Assembly (NCBI GenBank): GCA_020072565.1
Contig: JAIQGI010000011.1
Coordinates: 1 to 64,000 of the forward strand
DNA from: Terriglobia bacterium
GTDB lineage: Bacteria; Acidobacteriota; UBA6911
DNA: 64,000 bases
Direction: 5' to 3'
Shown one piece after another: positions 11,798 to 53,990 of this stretch. How positions within the stretch are numbered: position 1 is the first letter of the stretch; every line of letters starts with the position of its first letter. Below the pieces are notes generated by a model that worked only from the letters and a program-made list of their open reading frames with translations, was not told the DNA's origin and did not search any database. The translations under genes and the position numbers were made by a program.

Positions 11798-13114
11798 CTA
11801 ACAGTCCGGCCGCGGCGGCAGCACATCCATAAAAGAGGAAACCGAAAAGACCGCCCGCCCCAGACCCGGCTCCCCGTATCCGGGCGGGGCAGGAAGGTGG
11901 TGCTTCGCATGCGTGTCGCGGTACACACGCAGCAGGCGAACGTGGTACTCCAGCGGGGCGCCTTTTCGATCTCTACCCAGCACGCTTAGCGGTTCCGGGC
12001 ACCATGTAGTGAACCTCGGCGAAATACCGTGGCTCATGAAAAAATCAATCCCTTCCGCCGTCGAGGCGATTGCTTCGTCCACCGTGGCAAAACCGCGCGG
12101 TCCGGCCATCTCAATCCCGGCCACGAAATTCGGGATCACATGCGCGGGAGGGAACACCGTCGCCGCATCCAGGATCCGGCGTATCCACTCCTTCCGGCCG
12201 ATGTAACGGGCTTTCCCGGCGCACAAAGTTTCGAACAGGCTATTGTCCCAGATTTCATAATTCGGATGATAGATCTGCACCCCCGCATCGCGAAGTTTCT
12301 GAACCTCATCTTTGGGCAGCGCCTGGACCACGACCTTGCTGATCCAGCGCCCGGGAAATCGCGTCTCTATGGCTTCCGGGTACTGCACATAAAAGTCAAC
12401 CTCGGACTTCCCTTCCAGCGTCGACGTGATGCTCCCGCCGGTGACGGTATAGGCCTTGCTGTCGCTGTCGGTAGCGGCAATGATCTCGAGCGCTTCCAGG
12501 ATCTCGGCCACCGATTTGACGGAAGTGTAGGGCCTGCCCGCCTGTTTCTGCTGCCGGTAATTCTCGTTGATGTCGCAGAACTGGCACTCCTCCTGGGCCC
12601 CAAAATACTGGCAAAGGCGGAATACGGTCAGATACAGCAGATAGCCCCATTCGATGGTAGGGGCGATATCGGTGATCGGTTTGCCGTTCGAAAGAGTACG
12701 CTCGTAGTACGCGGGGGATTTCTGCAGCTCGACGCGCGCGACGGCGTGCCCATCGAGTTTGAGGACCAGGCCGCTTTCCTCCGATTCCACCCGATAGGGA
12801 GATGTGGGATTGAGGCGCACGGAGACGATCACCGGGTTGAAATTGAACGCGCCTCCAACCAGGCGGACCTCCTCGGGGGCCCTGATGTTCTCGCCCAGTT
12901 CCATTCCCGAGATCGGCACCATGTCGAAGGAAAAAATGAAATAAGCCTTGCGCTTGTAATTCGCGGCCAGTTCCAGCGCTTCTCCCGACCATGCCATCCC
13001 CCGCCGCAGGAGGTCTTCCTTGAAGATAGCCTCGATGGGGAGATCGGGATGGCGCCGAGCGAGAAGTTCGACCAATTCCAGCGCCGGCGTCCGGCTCTCA
13101 AGCGTCTGTTGCAT
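11798..13114 (-). CDS. Radical SAM protein with an atypical CX8CX2C cluster motif
   Basis: A protein of about 438 residues. The first ~160 residues are a separate N-terminal region; then FRLCQYFGAQEECQFCDIN gives cysteines near 169, 178 and 181 of the longest frame, a CX8CX2C spacing instead of the canonical CX3CX2C. Downstream, YTVTGGSITS resembles the glycine-rich SAM-binding strand, and VQIYHPNYEIWD, HVIPNFVAGIEM and TTWCPEPLS look like successive strands of the radical SAM barrel. I take the ATG at 13114; a TTG one codon earlier is also possible. The substrate is unknown and I do not recognise a named family. It precedes mutM by only 6 bp on the same strand. Function is not assignable from context. 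Confidence 0.7.
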   Translation of the reverse strand: MQQTLESRTPALELVELLARRHPDLPIEAIFKEDLLRRGMAWSGEALELAANYKRKAYFIFSFDMVPISGMELGENIRAPEEVRLVGGAFNFNPVIVSVRLNPTSPYRVESEESGLVLKLDGHAVARVELQKSPAYYERTLSNGKPITDIAPTIEWGYLLYLTVFRLCQYFGAQEECQFCDINENYRQQKQAGRPYTSVKSVAEILEALEIIAATDSDSKAYTVTGGSITSTLEGKSEVDFYVQYPEAIETRFPGRWISKVVVQALPKDEVQKLRDAGVQIYHPNYEIWDNSLFETLCAGKARYIGRKEWIRRILDAATVFPPAHVIPNFVAGIEMAGPRGFATVDEAIASTAEGIDFFMSHGISPRFTTWCPEPLSVLGRDRKGAPLEYHVRLLRVYRDTHAKHHLPAPPGYGEPGLGRAVFSVSSFMDVLPPRPDC

Positions 13115-13117
13115 CAA

Positions 13118-13542
13118 AATAATCTACCATAAATGAAAAAGGGGGCCTCCCGATTTTCCCGGAAGAGCCCGACATGCATAATAGAACTAGCTCGGGCAGA
13201 GAAGAGGAAGGACATTGGCCCGGATCGGATTATTAGTGAATATGCGATCAAAATGAATTTTGGGACGCGGAAAAACGCTGACAGACGCTGACCGTTCGGT
13301 CTTGGACGGCGTGCAGGAGATTTTGCCGCGCCGCAGGCGCCAGCGTTCCGGGCAAGCAGGACGGCAAAAGCTCCGGCCAGCGTCTATCCGCGTCCAGTTT
13401 GGTTGCCTTTCACCGGCGTTTGGCTCTGCTTCACGAATAATTCGGGTTGGAACACAGGGTAACTTTAGTTTGCCCGCAATTCTGGCTTGTGAGAGCAATT
13501 CTTAGTACCATTTCTGCAGCTCGTGAAGGAGGCGATCATCTG
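13118..13542. other. Intergenic region between divergent genes
   Basis: A 425-bp non-coding stretch between the radical SAM gene and the membrane-protein gene. It contains the 133-bp repeat listed at 13263-13395 and, before it, an A-rich run with GGGGGCCTCCCGATTTTCCC near 13142. The last 15 bases include the AGGAGG ribosome-binding site of the downstream gene. Short open frames here lack initiation sites and I reject them. Confidence 0.6.
13263..13395. repeat. Dispersed palindromic repeat, copy A
   Basis: The element is bounded by GGACGCGGAAAAACGCTGAC and its partial inverse CGTCTATCCGCGTCC. Its reverse complement aligns almost base for base with the element at 59024-59105: GGACGC, GATA, ACGC, GGAGCTTTTGC, then CACGCCG, ACGGTC, GTCAGCGTTTTT and GCGTCC occur in the same order, with about 50 extra bases in the middle of this copy. 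The ends can pair to form a long imperfect hairpin. Confidence 0.75.
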
Positions 13543-14358
13543 GTGCTCGCTCTGTTGAAGATTCTTCCGATAGCAACGGGGGCGGTGGCTGGCCTCATCG
13601 TATCCAGTTGGCAGGGATTTAAGGATCCGCCGTGGGAGGGTTTCTTTATCGGCAGGTTTTTTCGCAGTATTCTCGTCGGGGCTGCCGCCGGCGCTGTCTT
13701 ATCCTACGCCGGCATCGCCGGAATTCGCGCCACAGACAATCTCGGCATTTTTGCCTTTGCAATTGTAGCGGTGGAGCGGGTGGTCGACGAGGCCTACAAG
13801 GGCTTCTTCCGTAAAGGCGCGCACGGCGAGTACTACAAGCTACTCAACAGGATGCGCGTGCCGGCCGATGCTCGTGTCGTAAAAGTGCTGCTGGGCGTCG
13901 GTTTCGTGATCGGTTCCTATTGGCTGTTCCGCCTGCTGGCCTGGTGGCTTGCCAGGATGGTGACCGGTTCTGCGAACCTGTGGCTGCCGGGACTGATTGT
14001 GGGGGCTGCCGGCGGGTTGCTCGTTGCCATCGGCGGTGCGCTGAAGGACTCACAGTTCGAAGGATTCATACCGGCGAAATTCGTCCGGAGCCCCATCGTG
14101 AGCGCCATGACCGGGATGCTCTTCATCCGCTTCTCGACGAACTGGTTCGTGATCGCCCTTGCTGCTGTCGGGGGTGAACGGGTCGGCGTAGAGCTCTACA
14201 AGACGTTTTTGAAGCGCCAGGTGAGGGGGATGCACGCCAACAAACCGGTCAGCTATCCTGTCTGGCTGGCCCGGCGCTGGATTTTCGCGCTTTCGTACGG
14301 GATCGCGGTGCTTGTCTGCATCATCCTGCTGGTCGCCCAGCTCCAAAGAGGCTTCTAG
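13543..14358 (+). CDS. Uncharacterised membrane protein with internal duplication (paralogue of 14967-15746)
   Basis: A 271-residue polytopic membrane protein. I chose GTG at 13543 because AGGAGG lies 10 nt upstream; the frame can extend to a TTG at 13447 but that part overlaps intergenic repeat sequence. The protein contains the same motif twice: GFKDPPWEGF at 25-34 and GALKDSQFEGF at 165-175, each followed by an F-x-R-S segment, a hydrophobic span and an E-R/E-x-Y-K segment (VERVVDEAYKGFF near 78-89; GERVGVELYKTFL near 211-223). This implies two pseudo-symmetric halves of about 140 residues. The minus-strand gene at 14967-15746 shares the design. I do not recognise the family. The stop overlaps the convergent VTT-domain gene's stop within a CTAG. 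Confidence 0.8.
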   Translation: MLALLKILPIATGAVAGLIVSSWQGFKDPPWEGFFIGRFFRSILVGAAAGAVLSYAGIAGIRATDNLGIFAFAIVAVERVVDEAYKGFFRKGAHGEYYKLLNRMRVPADARVVKVLLGVGFVIGSYWLFRLLAWWLARMVTGSANLWLPGLIVGAAGGLLVAIGGALKDSQFEGFIPAKFVRSPIVSAMTGMLFIRFSTNWFVIALAAVGGERVGVELYKTFLKRQVRGMHANKPVSYPVWLARRWIFALSYGIAVLVCIILLVAQLQRGF

Positions 14359-46561: not shown

Positions 46562-48046
46562 ATGTACTTCTATCTCTACATCATTCTGGCCTATCTCCTC
46601 GGCCTTACGGTGCTGAACTTCATCCGTTCCAGACGGATTAAGAGCCAGGAGCAGTTCATGGTCGCCGGCCGCAGCTTGAAGTGGCAGGTCATGGTCTTCA
46701 CGCTGATCTGCACCTGGATCGGTTCCGGCACGTTCATCAGCGGAGCCGAGTTCGCCTCCAAGGCCGGCTTCTCGGCCCTGTGGCTCGCCGGCGGGGCATG
46801 GGTGGGCATCATCCTCATTTACTTTCTTGCGGCCAAGATCCACACTTTCGGCCAGTATACGGTCGGCGATGTCCTTGAGGTCCGCTACGGACCGGCGGCC
46901 CGGCTCTTCGGAGCCCTCGCGCTGATCCTGTCCTTCATCTCGATCGTGTCCTATCAATTCGTGGCGGGCGGATTCATTTTAAACGTAATCACCGACGGCC
47001 AGATCTCCGAGTGGACGGGCACGATCATCGCGGCCGCGTTCGTCATTCTCTTCACAATGCTTGGTGGCATGGTGGCCATCGCCTACACGGATCTGCCGAA
47101 CGGAATCGTTATTGTGCTGGCCTGTCTCCTGGCGGTACCCTTCGTCGTCTCATCGGCGGGTGGCCTGCCGGGCGCCCACGCGGCACTTGATCCCGGATAC
47201 TTTGCCGTTGTCAACAACCAGTTTGGAGCCCATCCATGGCTTAAGGCCATCGGCTATTTCCTTTCGACGCTGTTCCTGCTCATGGGTGTCCAAAGCATGT
47301 ACCAGAAGTTCTATAGCGCCAAGTCCGCCAAGGACGCGAAAAAGGCCGTCGCCTGGTGGACGATCGGGACGATCTTTGTCGAAACCGTCGTGGTCATCAT
47401 CGCCGTCTTCGCTTATAGCAAGTTTAAAGGCCAGATCGACCTGACCATCCCTAAAGCGGGCGGCAAAGTAGTTCTCATGGCCGCCCGAAGCCTGGTGCCG
47501 CCATGGGTCGGGGTGCTGCTCCTGGGTGCGGCCTGCGCCGTCGTCCTCTCCACGGGCATGAACTATCTGCTCTCCCCGTCGACGACGCTCATGCGCGACA
47601 TCTATCAGCGATTCATGAAAAAGGACGCAGACGAAAAGACCCTGGTCCCCTTGCAGAAGATCCTCGTCCTCGTCATCGGTGTGCTGGCTTTCCTGCTCGC
47701 GACGCAACTGACGAGCATCCTCCAGATGAGCTTGTTCGCCTATACGATCTACGGCGTCGCAATCACACCGGCCCTGCTCGCGGCCCTGGCCTGGAAGCGC
47801 GCCACAAAGGCGGGCGGTCTGGCTTCGATCATTTCGGGAACGGCCGTCTGCCTGTTCTTCTTCATCGCGTCCAAGCTCTTGCCTGCAGAACAGGTCCCCG
47901 AGGGCGATCCCTGGGGGATCCCGCTCATCTATCCGGCGCTCATTGCATCCCTGGGCGCCCTTATCATCGTCAGCCTGGCGACTCCGAAGCCCGGCCCGGA
48001 AGTGCTCGAGAAATTTTTCCCGGAGAAAGAAAGAGCCTCGAAGTAG
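46562..48046 (+). CDS. Sodium:solute symporter (SSS family)
   Basis: A 494-residue transporter with about 13 spans, starting at ATG with GAAGGAGGG upstream. SRRIKSQEQFMVAGRSLKWQ is the SSS family's first loop, and IGSGTFISGAEFASKAGFSA, YTVGDVLEVRYGPAARLFGA and LLLGAACAVVLSTGMNYLLS hold the conserved Na+-site residues. Members co-transport Na+ with proline, pantothenate, sugars, acetate and others. Substrate cannot be read from sequence; the spacing to the Tat reductase gene (30 bp, same strand) suggests a common transcript. It is divergent from the APC permease gene. Confidence 0.9.
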   Translation: MYFYLYIILAYLLGLTVLNFIRSRRIKSQEQFMVAGRSLKWQVMVFTLICTWIGSGTFISGAEFASKAGFSALWLAGGAWVGIILIYFLAAKIHTFGQYTVGDVLEVRYGPAARLFGALALILSFISIVSYQFVAGGFILNVITDGQISEWTGTIIAAAFVILFTMLGGMVAIAYTDLPNGIVIVLACLLAVPFVVSSAGGLPGAHAALDPGYFAVVNNQFGAHPWLKAIGYFLSTLFLLMGVQSMYQKFYSAKSAKDAKKAVAWWTIGTIFVETVVVIIAVFAYSKFKGQIDLTIPKAGGKVVLMAARSLVPPWVGVLLLGAACAVVLSTGMNYLLSPSTTLMRDIYQRFMKKDADEKTLVPLQKILVLVIGVLAFLLATQLTSILQMSLFAYTIYGVAITPALLAALAWKRATKAGGLASIISGTAVCLFFFIASKLLPAEQVPEGDPWGIPLIYPALIASLGALIIVSLATPKPGPEVLEKFFPEKERASK

Positions 48047-48076
48047 AAACTCATGAATCAATCAGGAGCCCCAGTT

Positions 48077-49261
48077 ATGGCATCAGACAGTCCGGATAAA
48101 AACAGAAGGAAATTCTTGTCTCAGACCTCGTTGGCCCTGGCCTCTGCGGGCGTGATCGGCGTGCCGCGTCGCTGGATGCCCGGCCAGCAACCGGTTGGCA
48201 ACACGGCAAAGGGCAAGGCCGCTATCCAGCGCACCCTCGGCAGAACCGGCATCAGGGTGCCGATTGTCAGCATGGGCGTGATGAACGCCAACAATCCTGA
48301 AGTACTGAAACAGGCCTATGAAGCAGGGGTGCGCCTCTTCGACACAGCGCTGGGTTATCAGCAGGGGAGAAACGAGGAAATGGTGGGGAGCGTCATCGCC
48401 CAGCTGGGGGTGCGCGACAAAGTCATCATTCAGACCAAGATTCCCTTTCCCCGCGTCCCGGCCGGTTCGATCAAGGACAAGTTCCTGAGCGATTTCGCCG
48501 GGTGCCTGAAACGTCTTCAGACCGATTACGTTGACGGACTGCTGATTCATCAGCCCAACGTGGATCAAATGAACAACCCGGAGGTCATCGAAGCGCTCAA
48601 GGAGGCAAGGCAGCAGAAGAAGGCGCGCTATATCGGCGTCTCTCAGCACGCGGGGCAGGCGGGAATTCTGAATAGTGCTGCCGGGAGCGGGATTTATGAC
48701 ATGGTTGTGGTCGGGTTTAACTTCCAGAACTCCGGTGATGCGGATTTCCTTCAGGCACTGAAAACCGCTTCTGCAAAAGGGGTCGGTATTGTCGCCATGA
48801 AAACGCAGACCGGCGGGCGCGCCAAAAATCTGGGTGCGCTCAACCAGACCGCCATGCTCAAGTGGGTGCTCCAGCATCCGGAAATCACCACGGCAATTCC
48901 AGGCTTCACAAATTTCGACCAGCTGAATGAAAGCTTCGCCGTCGCCTCGGGCCTGGATTACACCAACGAAGAGAAGACCTGGCTGGCTGACAAGAACGTC
49001 ATGCTCGCCCTCGACTACTGCAAGCAGTGCGGAACCTGCCTTGCGACCTGTCCGAAGGGCGTCGACATACCCACGCTCATGCGCACGCACATGTACGCCG
49101 CCTGCTACGCCAACTTCGATCAGGCCCGGGCCACGTTTGAGGAGATCCCTGAAAATGAAGGTTTGAGGAACTGCTCTGATTGCTCCAGCTGTTCGGCGCG
49201 CTGCGCAAATAATGTCAGAATCGGTGAGAGGATTGCCGACCTGAGAGCAATCTATATCTAG
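48077..49261 (+). CDS. Tat-exported aldo/keto reductase with ferredoxin-like C-terminus (paralogue)
   Basis: A 394-residue protein. I start at ATG 48077 (AGGAG 8 nt upstream); an ATG at 48053 is also possible. NRRKFLSQTSLALASAGVIG is a twin-arginine-like signal. The reductase tetrad is visible: Asp and Tyr in RLFDTALGYQQGRNEE, Lys in IIQTKIPF and His in GLLIHQPNVDQM. The C-terminus has DYCKQCGTCLATCPKGVDIP and NCSDCSSCSARCANNV, each a ferredoxin-type cluster candidate. It shares this design with the protein at 30480-31691, including the Tat signal, so they are paralogues. Neighbours are an SSS symporter upstream and a lipoprotein/polyferredoxin/DUF362 operon downstream on the other strand. 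Function is unknown; periplasmic sugar or quinone redox chemistry is possible. Confidence 0.88.
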   Translation: MASDSPDKNRRKFLSQTSLALASAGVIGVPRRWMPGQQPVGNTAKGKAAIQRTLGRTGIRVPIVSMGVMNANNPEVLKQAYEAGVRLFDTALGYQQGRNEEMVGSVIAQLGVRDKVIIQTKIPFPRVPAGSIKDKFLSDFAGCLKRLQTDYVDGLLIHQPNVDQMNNPEVIEALKEARQQKKARYIGVSQHAGQAGILNSAAGSGIYDMVVVGFNFQNSGDADFLQALKTASAKGVGIVAMKTQTGGRAKNLGALNQTAMLKWVLQHPEITTAIPGFTNFDQLNESFAVASGLDYTNEEKTWLADKNVMLALDYCKQCGTCLATCPKGVDIPTLMRTHMYAACYANFDQARATFEEIPENEGLRNCSDCSSCSARCANNVRIGERIADLRAIYI

Positions 49262-49360: not shown

Positions 49361-50317
49361 CTATTTGATGTGGGCGAGCAGTTCGGCAATCAACTTCTTC
49401 CCCGCCTCCTCGGAAGCAATGCCGAGCGCGACCACAATGTTCTTCCCGGCGCGGATCGCCGCCATGTTGCCGTAAAAACTGTCTCTGCCTGAAAAGCCCC
49501 CCTCACCCGGCGACTTTAGATCTTTAACATCCTTCCCTCCGGTCGAGAGAAACTGCCGATAGCGCGCCAACGCGTCCTGTGCGGCCGCAGGGCTCTCCAG
49601 GGTTACGAGGATCATCTTGTACTCCTTGGCGTCCGCCTTGTACCTGGCCTCGAATCCGTTGGTAAAGTAGCTCTGCGCGAGCACGTCTTTGGGAATGTAA
49701 GCGATGGTGTGGGGCATCTGGTTTTCTTTAGGGAAGTAGGAAACTTCCGCCGGCTCCGCCCCCGCGGCCGGCACCTTGCCGGCGACGGCATTCGCGAGCT
49801 TGGTCATCTCCTGCTTGATCGCATCCTTTTCATCGAAGGTCGTGATCTTGACATAGTAGGGGCCGGACCAGAAGTTCACTGATGTCCCTCCCGAATACCC
49901 TTCGTTCCCGATCTTCAGAAACTGGTATCCCGGATTGCGCTCCTCGGTGTATTTGCCGAAGGCGTTGAGCGGGTCTTTCATCTGGTAGATTTCGACTACT
50001 GCCTCGTAGCCCGTCCCGTCCTGTTTGTAGTCGGCGCTTGCGACTTCCTGAAATCCGTAGGCCAGGAAACTGTCTGCGGCGCCATCGATATACTCGTAGA
50101 GATCCCCTGCCTTGAAAGAACGCGGCTTCTGGGACATCGCCCACCCGGGGACCTCGTTCTTGGCTGGGAGCAGCGCCAGCAACTGAGGCGATACATCGGA
50201 AGGCCGCGCCGCCGGCTCGACGGCCTTGGCCTCCTCCTTGTTGCTGCTTTCCTTTTTGGCGCAAGAAGCAACACCGAAGCTGGCCAGAAGCAGGAAGAAC
50301 ACGAGGGATTTTTTCAT
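49361..50317 (-). CDS. Lipoprotein (DUF6599-like)
   Basis: A 318-residue protein with a lipoprotein signal (MKKSLVFFLLLASFGVASCA), lipobox cysteine about residue 19, and Ala/Glu-rich linker. Start 50317 has GGAGAG 6 nt upstream; the frame extends a further 14 codons without a site. The core phrase AGDLYEYIDGAADSFLAYGF followed by QEVASADYKQDG resembles the DUF6599 family of exported proteins, in which Y-I-N/D-G-A is the hallmark; the number is from memory. The rest is alternating strands with EVSYFPKENQMPHTIAYIPK and a repeat-like second half. No enzyme motif is visible. It is the last gene of a set with the polyferredoxin and DUF362 genes (100-bp gap), so a role in the same membrane redox unit is likely. 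Confidence 0.78.
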   Translation of the reverse strand: MKKSLVFFLLLASFGVASCAKKESSNKEEAKAVEPAARPSDVSPQLLALLPAKNEVPGWAMSQKPRSFKAGDLYEYIDGAADSFLAYGFQEVASADYKQDGTGYEAVVEIYQMKDPLNAFGKYTEERNPGYQFLKIGNEGYSGGTSVNFWSGPYYVKITTFDEKDAIKQEMTKLANAVAGKVPAAGAEPAEVSYFPKENQMPHTIAYIPKDVLAQSYFTNGFEARYKADAKEYKMILVTLESPAAAQDALARYRQFLSTGGKDVKDLKSPGEGGFSGRDSFYGNMAAIRAGKNIVVALGIASEEAGKKLIAELLAHIK

Positions 50318-50416
50318 GAATACTCTCCGCAAAGGGGGACACTCCGATTTCTCACTCATAGCTTCCTAATACTAGAATACTGACGGGAAAATCGGAATGC
50401 CCTCTTATTGCCGCAA

Positions 50417-52147
50417 TTATCGGTAGGCGCCGCTCTCGAGGCGAATCTGATTCGTGCGCGAGCGGGTCTCCCCTATGCTGGTCACGTAAACCGCGGGCTT
50501 ATCCTGGACCGGGCAGACATTCTCGCATATTCCACATCCGACGCACCGGTCAACGTCCACTCGAGGGCGCTGAACCGTCACCATGGTGCCGTCACGGCGC
50601 GGAATCGTTTCCACCTGCACCCAAATCGCCTTTGGCGAAGTGGGACAGAATTCCTCGCACACAATGCACGGAGTGGCCATCGCCCAGGGGAGGCACCTTC
50701 CCTGATCGTAGAACGCGGTGCCGATCTTCACAGGCCCCGGGTTCTTCTTCCCGGAGGCATCTGCCCCTGCTTTGCCCAGCTTTTCGGCCTCCGTCAATTT
50801 CCAGATCGCCCCCGTAGGACAGACCTGGCCGCACAGGACGCAGCTGTACTCGCAGTAGCCGACGCGCATCTTCAGCATCGGCGTCCACAGGCCCTCCACG
50901 CCGCTCTCAAAAAGCGCCGGCTGAATCGCGTTGGTCGGGCACACCTTCATGCACTCGCCGCAACGGATGCATCGGGCCAGGAAATCGTTCTCTGCCAGCG
51001 AACCCGGAGGGCGGATGACGCCGGAGTTGTAATCCTTGGCCAAACCTGTGCTCGCGCGCACGACCGGCAGTATGACAAGACCGGCCGCAACACTCTCGAG
51101 CGCCCGGCGCCGTTTCAAGTCAGGCAAAACGTTAATGGAGTCGGCCTTCGGAAAGAACTTGAAACGGATGACATCCTCAGGGCACGCCGCCTCGCAGTTG
51201 AAGCACAGGTGGCATTCGGCCTGCCGCCATGGCACCTTTCCCTGCGGATCGCAGGCCCCCTGGCAATGAAGCAGGCACCGGTTGCAGTCGTCACACTTGC
51301 CGTGGTTCTTTTCCATGCCGAAGATCGAATAGCGCGACAGCAGCCCCATGAAGGCGCCGAGCGGGCAGATGCCCCGGCACCAGAACCGCGTGATGGCACG
51401 ATTGAGGATCGCCAGGGCCACGAAGATCGCCCCAAGCAGGAAGCCGAAGTAGTAGTACTGCGGCTTGAAGCTCAAGATGTTTGAGCCGAACAGGCGATAT
51501 CCGGCATCGGCGCACCACTGGAGAACCGCGATGTTGGTCCCGTACAAGAAATCGAACCCGCTTCTCAGCCCGAAGTTGAGCCCGGGAATGATCGACACTG
51601 CGAGTGAGCGCACCAGGAACGGGATGGGGTCGAGGATGCCGGTCTGCAGCGAAGTGAAAATCGACATGGCGATCAGGCCGAACAGCAGGTAGTACTTGAT
51701 CGACATCCATTTTTTGTAATGGTTGGCATCCACGCGCTTCTTGCCTTTGCGCTCAGGCTTATAACTCGAGAAAAAGTGGTGGAGCGTCCCTAAGGGGCAG
51801 ACCCAGCCGCAGAAGAACCTTCCGATCAGGATGGTCACCGAAATGATGACGAGCGCCCAGATGACATTGCCGTAGAGCGCATGAGTCGAGAGTGCCGTGG
51901 AGAAAGCCACCAGTGGATCCATCTCCAGGAAAATGCTGACCGGATAGTCGAGCCGGACAGCGTCGGTCGCGCCTCGTGCAAAGGTGCCGCGGAACTCGGT
52001 CTGGAAAAGCAGAAACAGGAACAGCCCCAGAAAGACGATCTGCGAGATGCGTCGGAGCCGGCGCAGCCACATTCTGGGTCTTCGCTTCTCTGGTGCTTCG
52101 GGACTCGGGAAAGCCGGGCGAGGTATCGATTTATTCGAGGTTGACAT
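50417..52147 (-). CDS. NapH/NapG-like membrane polyferredoxin
   Basis: A 576-residue protein. The N-terminal half has about six membrane spans with the two NapH signatures FFCGWVCPLGTLHHFF and FWCRGICPLGAFMG. A series of ferredoxin-type [4Fe-4S] motifs follows: CDDCNRCLLHCQGACDP, CHLCFNCEAACPEDV, CIRCGECMKVCPTNA, CEYSCVLCGQVCPTGA, CIVCEEFCPTSPKA and CVGCGICENVCPV. Together these make an NapH membrane module fused to a NapG-like electron-transfer module, able to pass quinol or cytoplasmic electrons across the membrane. It overlaps the DUF362 gene by 17 nt (translational coupling) and precedes the lipoprotein gene. No terminal reductase is in the window, so the electron acceptor is unknown. Confidence 0.9.
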   Translation of the reverse strand: MSTSNKSIPRPAFPSPEAPEKRRPRMWLRRLRRISQIVFLGLFLFLLFQTEFRGTFARGATDAVRLDYPVSIFLEMDPLVAFSTALSTHALYGNVIWALVIISVTILIGRFFCGWVCPLGTLHHFFSSYKPERKGKKRVDANHYKKWMSIKYYLLFGLIAMSIFTSLQTGILDPIPFLVRSLAVSIIPGLNFGLRSGFDFLYGTNIAVLQWCADAGYRLFGSNILSFKPQYYYFGFLLGAIFVALAILNRAITRFWCRGICPLGAFMGLLSRYSIFGMEKNHGKCDDCNRCLLHCQGACDPQGKVPWRQAECHLCFNCEAACPEDVIRFKFFPKADSINVLPDLKRRRALESVAAGLVILPVVRASTGLAKDYNSGVIRPPGSLAENDFLARCIRCGECMKVCPTNAIQPALFESGVEGLWTPMLKMRVGYCEYSCVLCGQVCPTGAIWKLTEAEKLGKAGADASGKKNPGPVKIGTAFYDQGRCLPWAMATPCIVCEEFCPTSPKAIWVQVETIPRRDGTMVTVQRPRVDVDRCVGCGICENVCPVQDKPAVYVTSIGETRSRTNQIRLESGAYR

Positions 52148-53093
52148 ACTTCACCTGCAGTTCCGAATAGTTCTTGTTCCCCAGACCGCGCGTGTGACCG
52201 ATCATGATATAAGGGATCTGTTCTGCTCTTAAGCCCAGAAACGTGGCCCCGAGGGCGTCGATGGCCACAGGATCCACGCCGGCCACGACTGTCTTGAGCA
52301 GCTTGACGTCGTTGAGATTTCCCCCTTGAGGCCCATTCACCATGAGCACCCGGTAGGCATCCAGGATCGTCAGCGTCGGTCGCACAAAGGTCGCCAGATC
52401 CGCGATGCCGACGTCGATATTCTGATGCAATTGGTTTCTTCTCCCCCCGAGAATTCCATACCAGTTCTTCATTCCCATCGTGACGCGAGAGAGATTGTGG
52501 TGTTTCACAATCGGGATATTAATGATCTTGTCAGCCTCGATGATCGGCGTATACACCGGCCAAACCGACAGCAGCTCGCCATTGATGCGGTAATCCCGGA
52601 ACTTGCGTTCCTCGGGAAGGAGTACTGTCGCGCCTGCGGATTCGGCCGCGCTGGCAATGCCGCTGCGCATGAAGCAGCGCCGGGGGTCGTTGCAGGATAC
52701 ATCCGTTACCACCACCTGTTTGGCTCCCGCTTCAAAACACAGCTGAGCAACAGCCTTCACAAGCTCGGGATTTGTGTTCGCCGCCTGCTGAGGGACCCGG
52801 TCCCAACCGATGTTGGGCTTCAGAACCACAACATCGCCTCTGGCGATGAACTTCTGCATCCCGCCGAGGGCCGCCAGCGCGGCCGCCGCCAGACCGCCCG
52901 GCGTGCCGCCCGAAACCACGACCATCTTTGGCAGATCGTTTCCGATATTGACGCGATAGTTTCTTACCTGCGAGGTCGACAGCTCCTGGCCGGGGTGACG
53001 GCTGCGCGAGTGGAGCCAGAAGCCGAGCCCGCATGCGGCAGCTACGCCCGCGCCCACCCGGGATGATCGTTTCAGGAAATCGCGGCGGTCCAT
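52131..53093 (-). CDS. Tat-exported DUF362 protein
   Basis: A 320-residue protein with a twin-arginine signal (MDRRDFLKRSSRVGAGVAAA); start 53093 has AAGGAAG upstream. The DUF362 domain is clear: VVVLKPNIGWDRVPQQAANT, AGAKQVVVTDVSCNDPRRCF, IINIPIVKHHNLSRVTMGMK, NWYGILGGRRNQLHQNIDVG and DALGATFLGLRAEQIPYIMI. DUF362 is often fused to or next to ferredoxins, and its function is unknown. Here it is coupled to a membrane polyferredoxin gene and a lipoprotein gene, and it is exported, so it probably works outside the cytoplasm as a redox or metal-handling partner. This is inference. The MarR-type gene lies upstream on the same strand with a ~295-bp gap. Confidence 0.88.
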   Translation of the reverse strand: MDRRDFLKRSSRVGAGVAAACGLGFWLHSRSRHPGQELSTSQVRNYRVNIGNDLPKMVVVSGGTPGGLAAAALAALGGMQKFIARGDVVVLKPNIGWDRVPQQAANTNPELVKAVAQLCFEAGAKQVVVTDVSCNDPRRCFMRSGIASAAESAGATVLLPEERKFRDYRINGELLSVWPVYTPIIEADKIINIPIVKHHNLSRVTMGMKNWYGILGGRRNQLHQNIDVGIADLATFVRPTLTILDAYRVLMVNGPQGGNLNDVKLLKTVVAGVDPVAIDALGATFLGLRAEQIPYIMIGHTRGLGNKNYSELQVKYVNLE

Positions 53094-53387
53094 ACCATCT
53101 TCCTTCATGTTTCTGGTCGCTCTCGAAAACCGGACGGGGCCGGTGAATCATCCATGCGCACCTGGTCGGAGATTCCCGTGGAGAAAAACGATAGGTTTCG
53201 CCCTGAGTTTCCAGAGTGCCACTGCGGCTTATGCATTGCTCCGAGTTCGGCCCCGGGAACCGACTGGGATCAGGCACGCCCCGAAATGATAGGTAAATGG
53301 CCTGTGATTGTAAACCGCAATTGGGAGGTCAAATGAACGATGCCCGCCGATCGACCGATGTTTACTTCCAAAAACAAGCACTGCCCT

Positions 53388-53990
53388 TCACTGGTTATTC
53401 TTCATCTGTAATTCATCAGACCCTTGGCGCTCCTTCTGGCGCTGGTACAGGCATTGGCGGCTGAGCAGCTTGCGCAGCACGCATTTCTCGCGGAAATAGA
53501 TACCGCACTGCAGGCACATCTGTTCCCCTTCAGCGCTCTGGTTGACGATCTGGGCGGAGAGCCGATCGAGCAGCGCCGCCGCCTGCCGGAGTTCCTCAGG
53601 CTCGAAATCTCCGAAGATCTGCTGCAGCTTGTGCCGCCTGGCGGCGTCGTAAGCGGCCAGCAGACGCCGGCTCGGCTGCGTCAGGGAGAGATGGATCGCG
53701 CGGCGATCGGTTTCGCCTTCACTGCGCCGCAGCAGCATCATCCGCACCAGCTTGTCCACCGCCTTGCTCGCAGCTGCGTTACTGACCCCCAGAAAAGCGG
53801 CCACATCGCCAATCGTCTGCGCTTCGGTCAAGTTCACGAGCTTGAGCAGCTTCAACTGGGAGACGGTGATTTGGTTTTCAGCCACCTCCCGCAGCAACTC
53901 TTCTTCGATCACGTCTGCCAGCGCTGAGGCGAATACGTGGGCACTGCCAAGAAAGTCATCGATCAAATCCGTTGCATGATCCTCAGTCAT
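53388..53990 (-). CDS. MarR-family regulator with C-terminal four-cysteine motif
   Basis: A 200-residue regulator. The winged helix-turn-helix is near residues 43-100, with SQLKLLKLVNLTEAQTIGDV, AAFLGVSNAAASKAVDKLVR and a wing around RSEGETDRRAIHLSLT. After the usual dimerisation helices a tail carries Cys159, Cys162, Cys170 and Cys180 (MCLQCGIYFREKC then VLRKLLSRQC), a CX2CX7CX9C pattern able to bind zinc or an Fe-S cluster. MarR proteins sense phenolics, oxidants or metals and repress nearby genes. The neighbouring operon on the same strand (DUF362, polyferredoxin, lipoprotein) is a plausible target because it is redox-rich. No operator was identified in the 295-bp gap. Confidence 0.85.
   Translation of the reverse strand: MTEDHATDLIDDFLGSAHVFASALADVIEEELLREVAENQITVSQLKLLKLVNLTEAQTIGDVAAFLGVSNAAASKAVDKLVRMMLLRRSEGETDRRAIHLSLTQPSRRLLAAYDAARRHKLQQIFGDFEPEELRQAAALLDRLSAQIVNQSAEGEQMCLQCGIYFREKCVLRKLLSRQCLYQRQKERQGSDELQMKNNQ

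Follow-up and report, generated by a model that had tools for sequence, protein, structure and literature searches.

Closest described systems

The LarA superfamily (DUF2088, PF09861) comprises 2-hydroxyacid racemases and epimerases that depend on the nickel-pincer nucleotide (NPN). In LarA, K184 is the site of NPN attachment, H200 is a nickel ligand, R75 contacts the phosphate, and H108 and H174 are the catalytic residues (PMC7583248, PMC11770544). About 15% of surveyed genomes contain larB, larC and larE without larA, and the NPN protein of these genomes, as yet unidentified, has been supposed to differ from LarA in its fold (PMC11796402). This study concerns a gene cluster that encodes a DUF362 protein, a membrane polyferredoxin and a DUF6599 lipoprotein in a Terriglobia bacterium (Acidobacteriota, assembly GCA_020072565.1). 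The cluster lies in the first 64,000 nucleotides of contig JAIQGI010000011.1, the stretch that was analysed and is hereafter called the window. The reading we prefer, to which we give an even chance, is that the cluster encodes an extracytoplasmic NPN-dependent oxidoreductase coupled to the quinone pool.

In comparison with the LarA superfamily, the DUF362 protein shares the fold of the NPN domain, the order and approximate spacing of an H/K/H residue set and, in some lineages, proximity to larB, larC and larE. Pfam also groups DUF362 and the LarA family in one clan, CL0471 (PMC11770544). Unlike LarA, the DUF362 protein is predicted to be exported by the twin-arginine translocation (Tat) pathway and has electron-transfer partners, lacks the C-terminal domain and, apparently, an equivalent of H108, and its profile is not significantly similar to that of LarA. 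Against the Npun_F2552 family of DUF362 proteins (NF052623), the window protein scores 84 bits, far under the 500-bit cut-off.

The polyferredoxin resembles the NapGH quinol dehydrogenase and fused polytopic polyferredoxins (PMC5449189), with which it shares two CxxxCP signatures, six ferredoxin motifs, an internal twin-arginine segment and the NapH-NapG order. It scores far below the equivalog cut-offs, at 97 bits against 269 for NapG and 78 bits against 234 for NapH. Another NapH-NapG fusion has a dual Sec-Tat topology, reporter fusions having shown that its fifth membrane segment depends on Tat (PMC5449189), and this segment is matched by the KRRRAL segment near residue 346 of the window polyferredoxin.

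Organization and conservation of the gene cluster

The preliminary description of this DNA had reported three minus-strand genes, and open reading frames (ORFs), Pfam matches and signals all agree with it. The DUF362 protein (52131..53108, minus strand; PF04015, 168.5 bits against a 24-bit cut-off) begins with the twin-arginine sequence MDRRDFLKR, containing the RRDFLK motif. Its ORF starts at 53108, whereas that description had placed the start at 53093, where another in-frame ATG lies. The polyferredoxin gene (50417..52147, minus strand) overlaps it by 17 nucleotides (52131-52147), as had been stated. It encodes a NapH-NapG fusion of 576 residues, in which a membrane part with both CxxxCP signatures (residues 113 and 257) and two ferredoxin motifs (285 and 312) is followed by the internal twin-arginine segment and a NapG-like part with four clusters (393, 432, 485 and 535). 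The numbers of motifs claimed earlier are confirmed. The lipoprotein gene (49361..50359, minus strand; PF20244, 179.3 bits against a cut-off of 27) has a VASC lipobox after an internal Met at 50317, which may be the true start.

The claim that no terminal reductase is adjacent is now doubtful. On the plus strand at 48053..49261, convergent with the lipoprotein gene, lies a gene for a Tat-signal aldo-keto reductase (AKR; PF00248, 108.4 bits against a cut-off of 24) with a C-terminal pair of 4Fe-4S motifs, whose relatives stand beside genes of the system elsewhere; we propose it as a fourth component. It shares with AKRs that have C-terminal 4Fe-4S domains the AKR fold by sequence, the catalytic tetrad (D97-Y102-K129-H166) and eight cysteines, and differs from them in carrying a Tat signal (RRKFL motif). 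The eight conserved cysteines make an iron-sulfur (Fe-S) electron supply for an exported AKR plausible, the alternative being tightly bound NADP(H).

Within the class of the window's genome, the order DUF362, polyferredoxin, DUF6599 recurs in four other genomes (G027, G028, G031 and G037) and in part in a fifth (G036), while G021 has the cluster twice in another gene order. Such recurrence of gene order and orientation within the class shows that the three-gene arrangement is not due to chance. When about 85,000 species genomes were searched with the DUF362 alignment, 80 loci were obtained, which span Acidobacteriota, Myxococcota, Nitrospirota, KSB1, Aminicenantes, Syntrophaceae, Magnetococcales and others. 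Co-occurrence beyond close relatives had been set beforehand as a test of the proposed unit, and is observed: within 4 kb of DUF362, the polyferredoxin is found in 66 of the 80 loci, DUF6599 in 26, both in 25, the AKR in 15 and all four genes in 14, these counts being lower bounds owing to contig ends. The search for a conserved fourth gene, suggested at the same time, leads to the Fe-S AKR, which recurs from Acidobacteriota to Magnetococcales and Syntrophaceae. It adjoins the cluster in loci L047 and L061; in L048 and in L052, where its reading frame is broken, it is codirectional with the rest of the cluster.

All eight cysteines and the Tat motif are retained in nearly all linked Fe-S AKR copies, and the catalytic tetrad in most. 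Two relatives (L078:8672-9901 and L048:8604-9770) have lost some tetrad residues, a further difference from the known AKRs of this type, and retain all eight Fe-S cysteines. In L048 the polyferredoxin appears as two overlapping ORFs (11819-13658), which reflects either a genuine split of the gene or a frameshift introduced in sequencing. A natural fusion of the polyferredoxin at its C-terminus to a DUF6599 domain is found in a single ORF (L113:2100-4055).

The preliminary description had proposed that an exported DUF362 protein and a lipoprotein on the outside belong to one coupled redox unit. Linkage in several phyla, the Tat signals and the polyferredoxin-DUF6599 fusion argue for this part of the proposal, which had however missed the AKR, the LarA fold and the link to larB, larC and larE.

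In the window's genome, three of the four DUF6599 genes adjoin a DUF362 gene. On contig C15 of this genome (L040:7358-9468), a DUF362 gene of another type immediately precedes a DUF6599 gene, and no polyferredoxin is present. AmmeMemoRadiSam genes, namely those of a radical SAM enzyme whose start is Tat-like and of a protein in which B and A are fused, were seen between or near second-type and system-type DUF362 genes at L105:4823-7676 and also in L093, L102, L104, L113, L116, L120 and L125. Their candidacy as a shared pathway in some Acidobacteriota was set aside, since they go with another arrangement of DUF362 and none was found in the loci having all four genes. Apparent antisense clusters in the neighbourhood clustering were likewise rejected, being shadow ORFs of GC-rich genes.

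Predicted fold and proposed active site of the DUF362 protein

An AlphaFold2 model of the DUF362 protein, built from 48 relatives, has a pLDDT (predicted local distance difference test) of 91.1. When this model was searched with Foldseek, all 19 matches at E < 0.001 were LarA-family chains. Structural alignment gave Z-scores of 15.0-17.7 to 12 LarA-family entries of the PDB, compared with 5.5 for the next unrelated fold. Residues 66-294 of DUF362 align on residues 35-269 of LarA at about 2.8-3.2 Å over approximately 205 residues, and the part of LarA that is matched is its NPN-binding N-terminal domain.

Residues H204, K214 and H228 (codons within 52425..52499, minus strand) are invariant in 48 system-type DUF362 proteins, as well as in a more diverse set of 64, of which four had been selected by that motif. 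H204 and K214 are ten residues apart, the same as H174 and K184 in LarA, while K214 and H228 are separated by 14 residues versus 16 in LarA. Moreover, hhalign pairs H204 with H174 and K214 with K184 without a gap, in a comparison that is not significant overall. We therefore propose, on the basis of order and approximate spacing, that H204, K214 and H228 are the equivalents of LarA's catalytic H174, NPN-attaching K184 and nickel ligand H200. The Pfam Lar_N model cross-matches three DUF362 genes at the H/K/H stretch, one of them above the cut-off. For the window protein, a Pfam scan matched DUF362 alone, the cut-off of Lar_N (PF09861) not being reached, and a search of PDB sequences gave no match for DUF362 and a single chance-level match for DUF6599. 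DUF362 thus falls outside the LarA family by sequence and, as judged from the model, is related to it by fold.

Linkage to the cofactor genes

The cluster adjoins larB, larC and larE in six Magnetococcia genomes, in two arrangements, and in three Syntrophaceae genomes. In a Syntrophaceae locus (L145), larC, larB and larE stand beside the cluster and were identified by NCBIfam models above cut-off; in a Magnetococcales locus (L141), larB and larE were identified in this way and larC by homology; in L152 and L154 all three are present, as judged by homology. L141 is a codirectional run of seven genes (AKR, DUF6599, DUF362, polyferredoxin, larC, larB and larE) in which 8 nucleotides separate the polyferredoxin from larC, and its genome (G073) has no LarA.

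Co-occurrence was counted in 51 genomes, i.e., the window's own and 50 behind DUF362 loci, and LarC was found in 50 of them and LarA in 27. In the Nitrospirota, LarC is present in 115 of 120 genomes with DUF362 versus 38 of 78 others, and LarA in about 15 of 198. All these counts ignore kinship. Of the 14 genomes used as controls, those of Synechococcus elongatus and Haloferax volcanii encode DUF362 and LarC but no Lar_N. Two others, Corynebacterium glutamicum and Methanocaldococcus jannaschii, have LarC and neither DUF362 nor Lar_N, hence DUF362 cannot be the whole answer to which protein uses NPN.

Predicted lipoprotein fold and possible substrates

The AlphaFold2 model of DUF6599 has a pLDDT of 88.9, and its two halves match separate PDB structures: the PknH sensor domain (Z = 13.0) and TM1622 (Z = 10.9). 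We take these halves to resemble Mog1/PsbP-type folds. At another locus of the window's genome (C5), genes for DUF362, AKR and DUF6599 lie beside lactate permease, lactonase and enolase-superfamily genes, which suggests hydroxyacids or sugar acids as substrate.

Proposed mechanism and alternatives

In the mechanism we propose, LarB, LarE and LarC would make NPN in the cytoplasm, where DUF362 would be loaded with it, Lys214 being the attachment site, His228 the nickel ligand and His204 the acid/base. The NPN-loaded protein would be exported folded by Tat and, once outside, would move a hydride to or from the alcohol or carbonyl carbon of a substrate similar to a 2-hydroxyacid or a sugar acid. 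Whereas LarA returns the hydride to the same carbon, here two electrons would be exchanged, through the Fe-S AKR and the NapG-like part, with quinone at the NapH-like part. On the outer side of the membrane, the complex may be held by the DUF6599 lipoprotein as a scaffold. By analogy, the NapGH precedent favours quinol oxidation, which would correspond to substrate reduction.

A number of results weigh against this reading. The comparison of DUF362 and LarA profiles with hhalign is not significant (E = 0.033, probability 1.5%), and a second comparison with broader alignments produced no usable alignment. The position of LarA H108 is apparently not kept, with no conserved His near DUF362 residues 138-141; as regards the phosphate-binding R75 of LarA, R104 is kept only in system-type DUF362 proteins, D103 and R104 both being absent from distant ones; and DUF362, a single domain, has no counterpart of the LarA C-terminal domain. 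No lar genes lie near the window cluster, LarC being on contig C3. Co-occurrence is partly clade-driven, and the strong LarC correlation in the phylum of G073 (38/42 versus 9/158) probably reflects one clade. In 37 Nitrospirota, LarC is present while LarA and DUF362 are both absent. The presence of LarC in the window's class was rejected as evidence, since it is near universal there (36 of 38), including in genomes without the system-type DUF362; given this and the LarA also present in the window's genome, local co-occurrence says nothing. Finally, the control Bacteroides ihuae has DUF362 without LarC.

In an alternative that we consider unlikely, DUF362 does bind NPN and works outside the cell as a racemase or epimerase with no net redox, while the polyferredoxin and Fe-S AKR serve to keep the exported cofactor active or to restore it. 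Every LarA homologue characterised so far is an isomerase (PMC7583248, PMC11770544), lability is a property of NPN enzymes (PMC11796402), and no polyferredoxin was detected in 14 of the 80 DUF362 loci, some of which are cut by contig ends. Such an enzyme would, however, apparently have to do without the second catalytic His of LarA (H108), the polyferredoxin and AKR would be a heavy apparatus for mere repair, and the polyferredoxin is in fact the most constant partner of DUF362.

It could also be that DUF362 has the LarA fold and uses no NPN, in which case the cluster would be an unrelated exported redox system, as in the preliminary description but with the Fe-S AKR as terminal enzyme, and DUF362 would be a scaffold or maturation factor. 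This agrees with the tetrad kept in most linked AKR copies, with the lack of significant sequence similarity to LarA and with the genomes that have DUF362 without LarC. Nevertheless, the H/K/H residues are invariant at the proposed equivalent of the LarA cofactor site and larB, larC and larE are adjacent in two distant lineages and in more than one gene arrangement, and we regard this explanation as rather improbable. That DUF362 is a carrier which exports NPN and hands it to another enzyme would suit its single domain, without the LarA C-terminal domain, and its Tat signal, but is very improbable, as a second LarA-fold partner is missing from most loci and the proposed catalytic H204 is invariant.

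Neighbouring genes

A Na+/solute symporter gene (SSF; 46562..48046, plus strand; PF00474, 147.5 bits) lies 6 nucleotides upstream of the AKR gene; it is a possible carrier of substrate or product, and their spacing suggests an operon. Upstream of DUF362 and codirectional with it, a gene at 53388..53990 (minus strand; PF01047, 35 bits) encodes a MarR-type protein with a Cys-rich C-terminal tail (MCLQCGIYFREKCVLRKLLSRQC). A close relative occupies the same position in a locus of the same genus (L062), and we consider the gene a candidate regulator, possibly a metal or Fe-S sensor. No nitrate reductase was seen among the neighbouring ORFs examined (44.7-59 kb of the window).

Significance for the DUF362 family

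DUF362 is mentioned in nine open-access papers and COG2006 in four. The passages on DUF362 that were consulted assign it no function, no NPN role for it is stated in the papers found, and the one NPN paper among them that uses DUF362 takes it as an outgroup. No mention of DUF6599 was found in the open-access literature, and a literature search for exported Fe-S AKRs found no such system. We tentatively suggest, at somewhat short of an even chance, that DUF362 is a second widespread NPN-dependent family and the missing NPN user in many prokaryotes that have larB, larC and larE without larA, perhaps including cyanobacteria, and that the cluster is both the first extracytoplasmic NPN system and the first to perform net redox chemistry linked to respiration.

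A candidate family, residues to mutate and natural operons joining the candidate with the cofactor genes can now be named. If the suggestion is true, DUF362, a domain of unknown function in bacteria and archaea, would obtain a testable role, and NPN chemistry would extend from racemases with hidden redox to respiration-linked catalysis outside the cytoplasm. An exported NPN system may then account for the many bacteria that produce the rare nickel-pincer cofactor without having lactate racemase.

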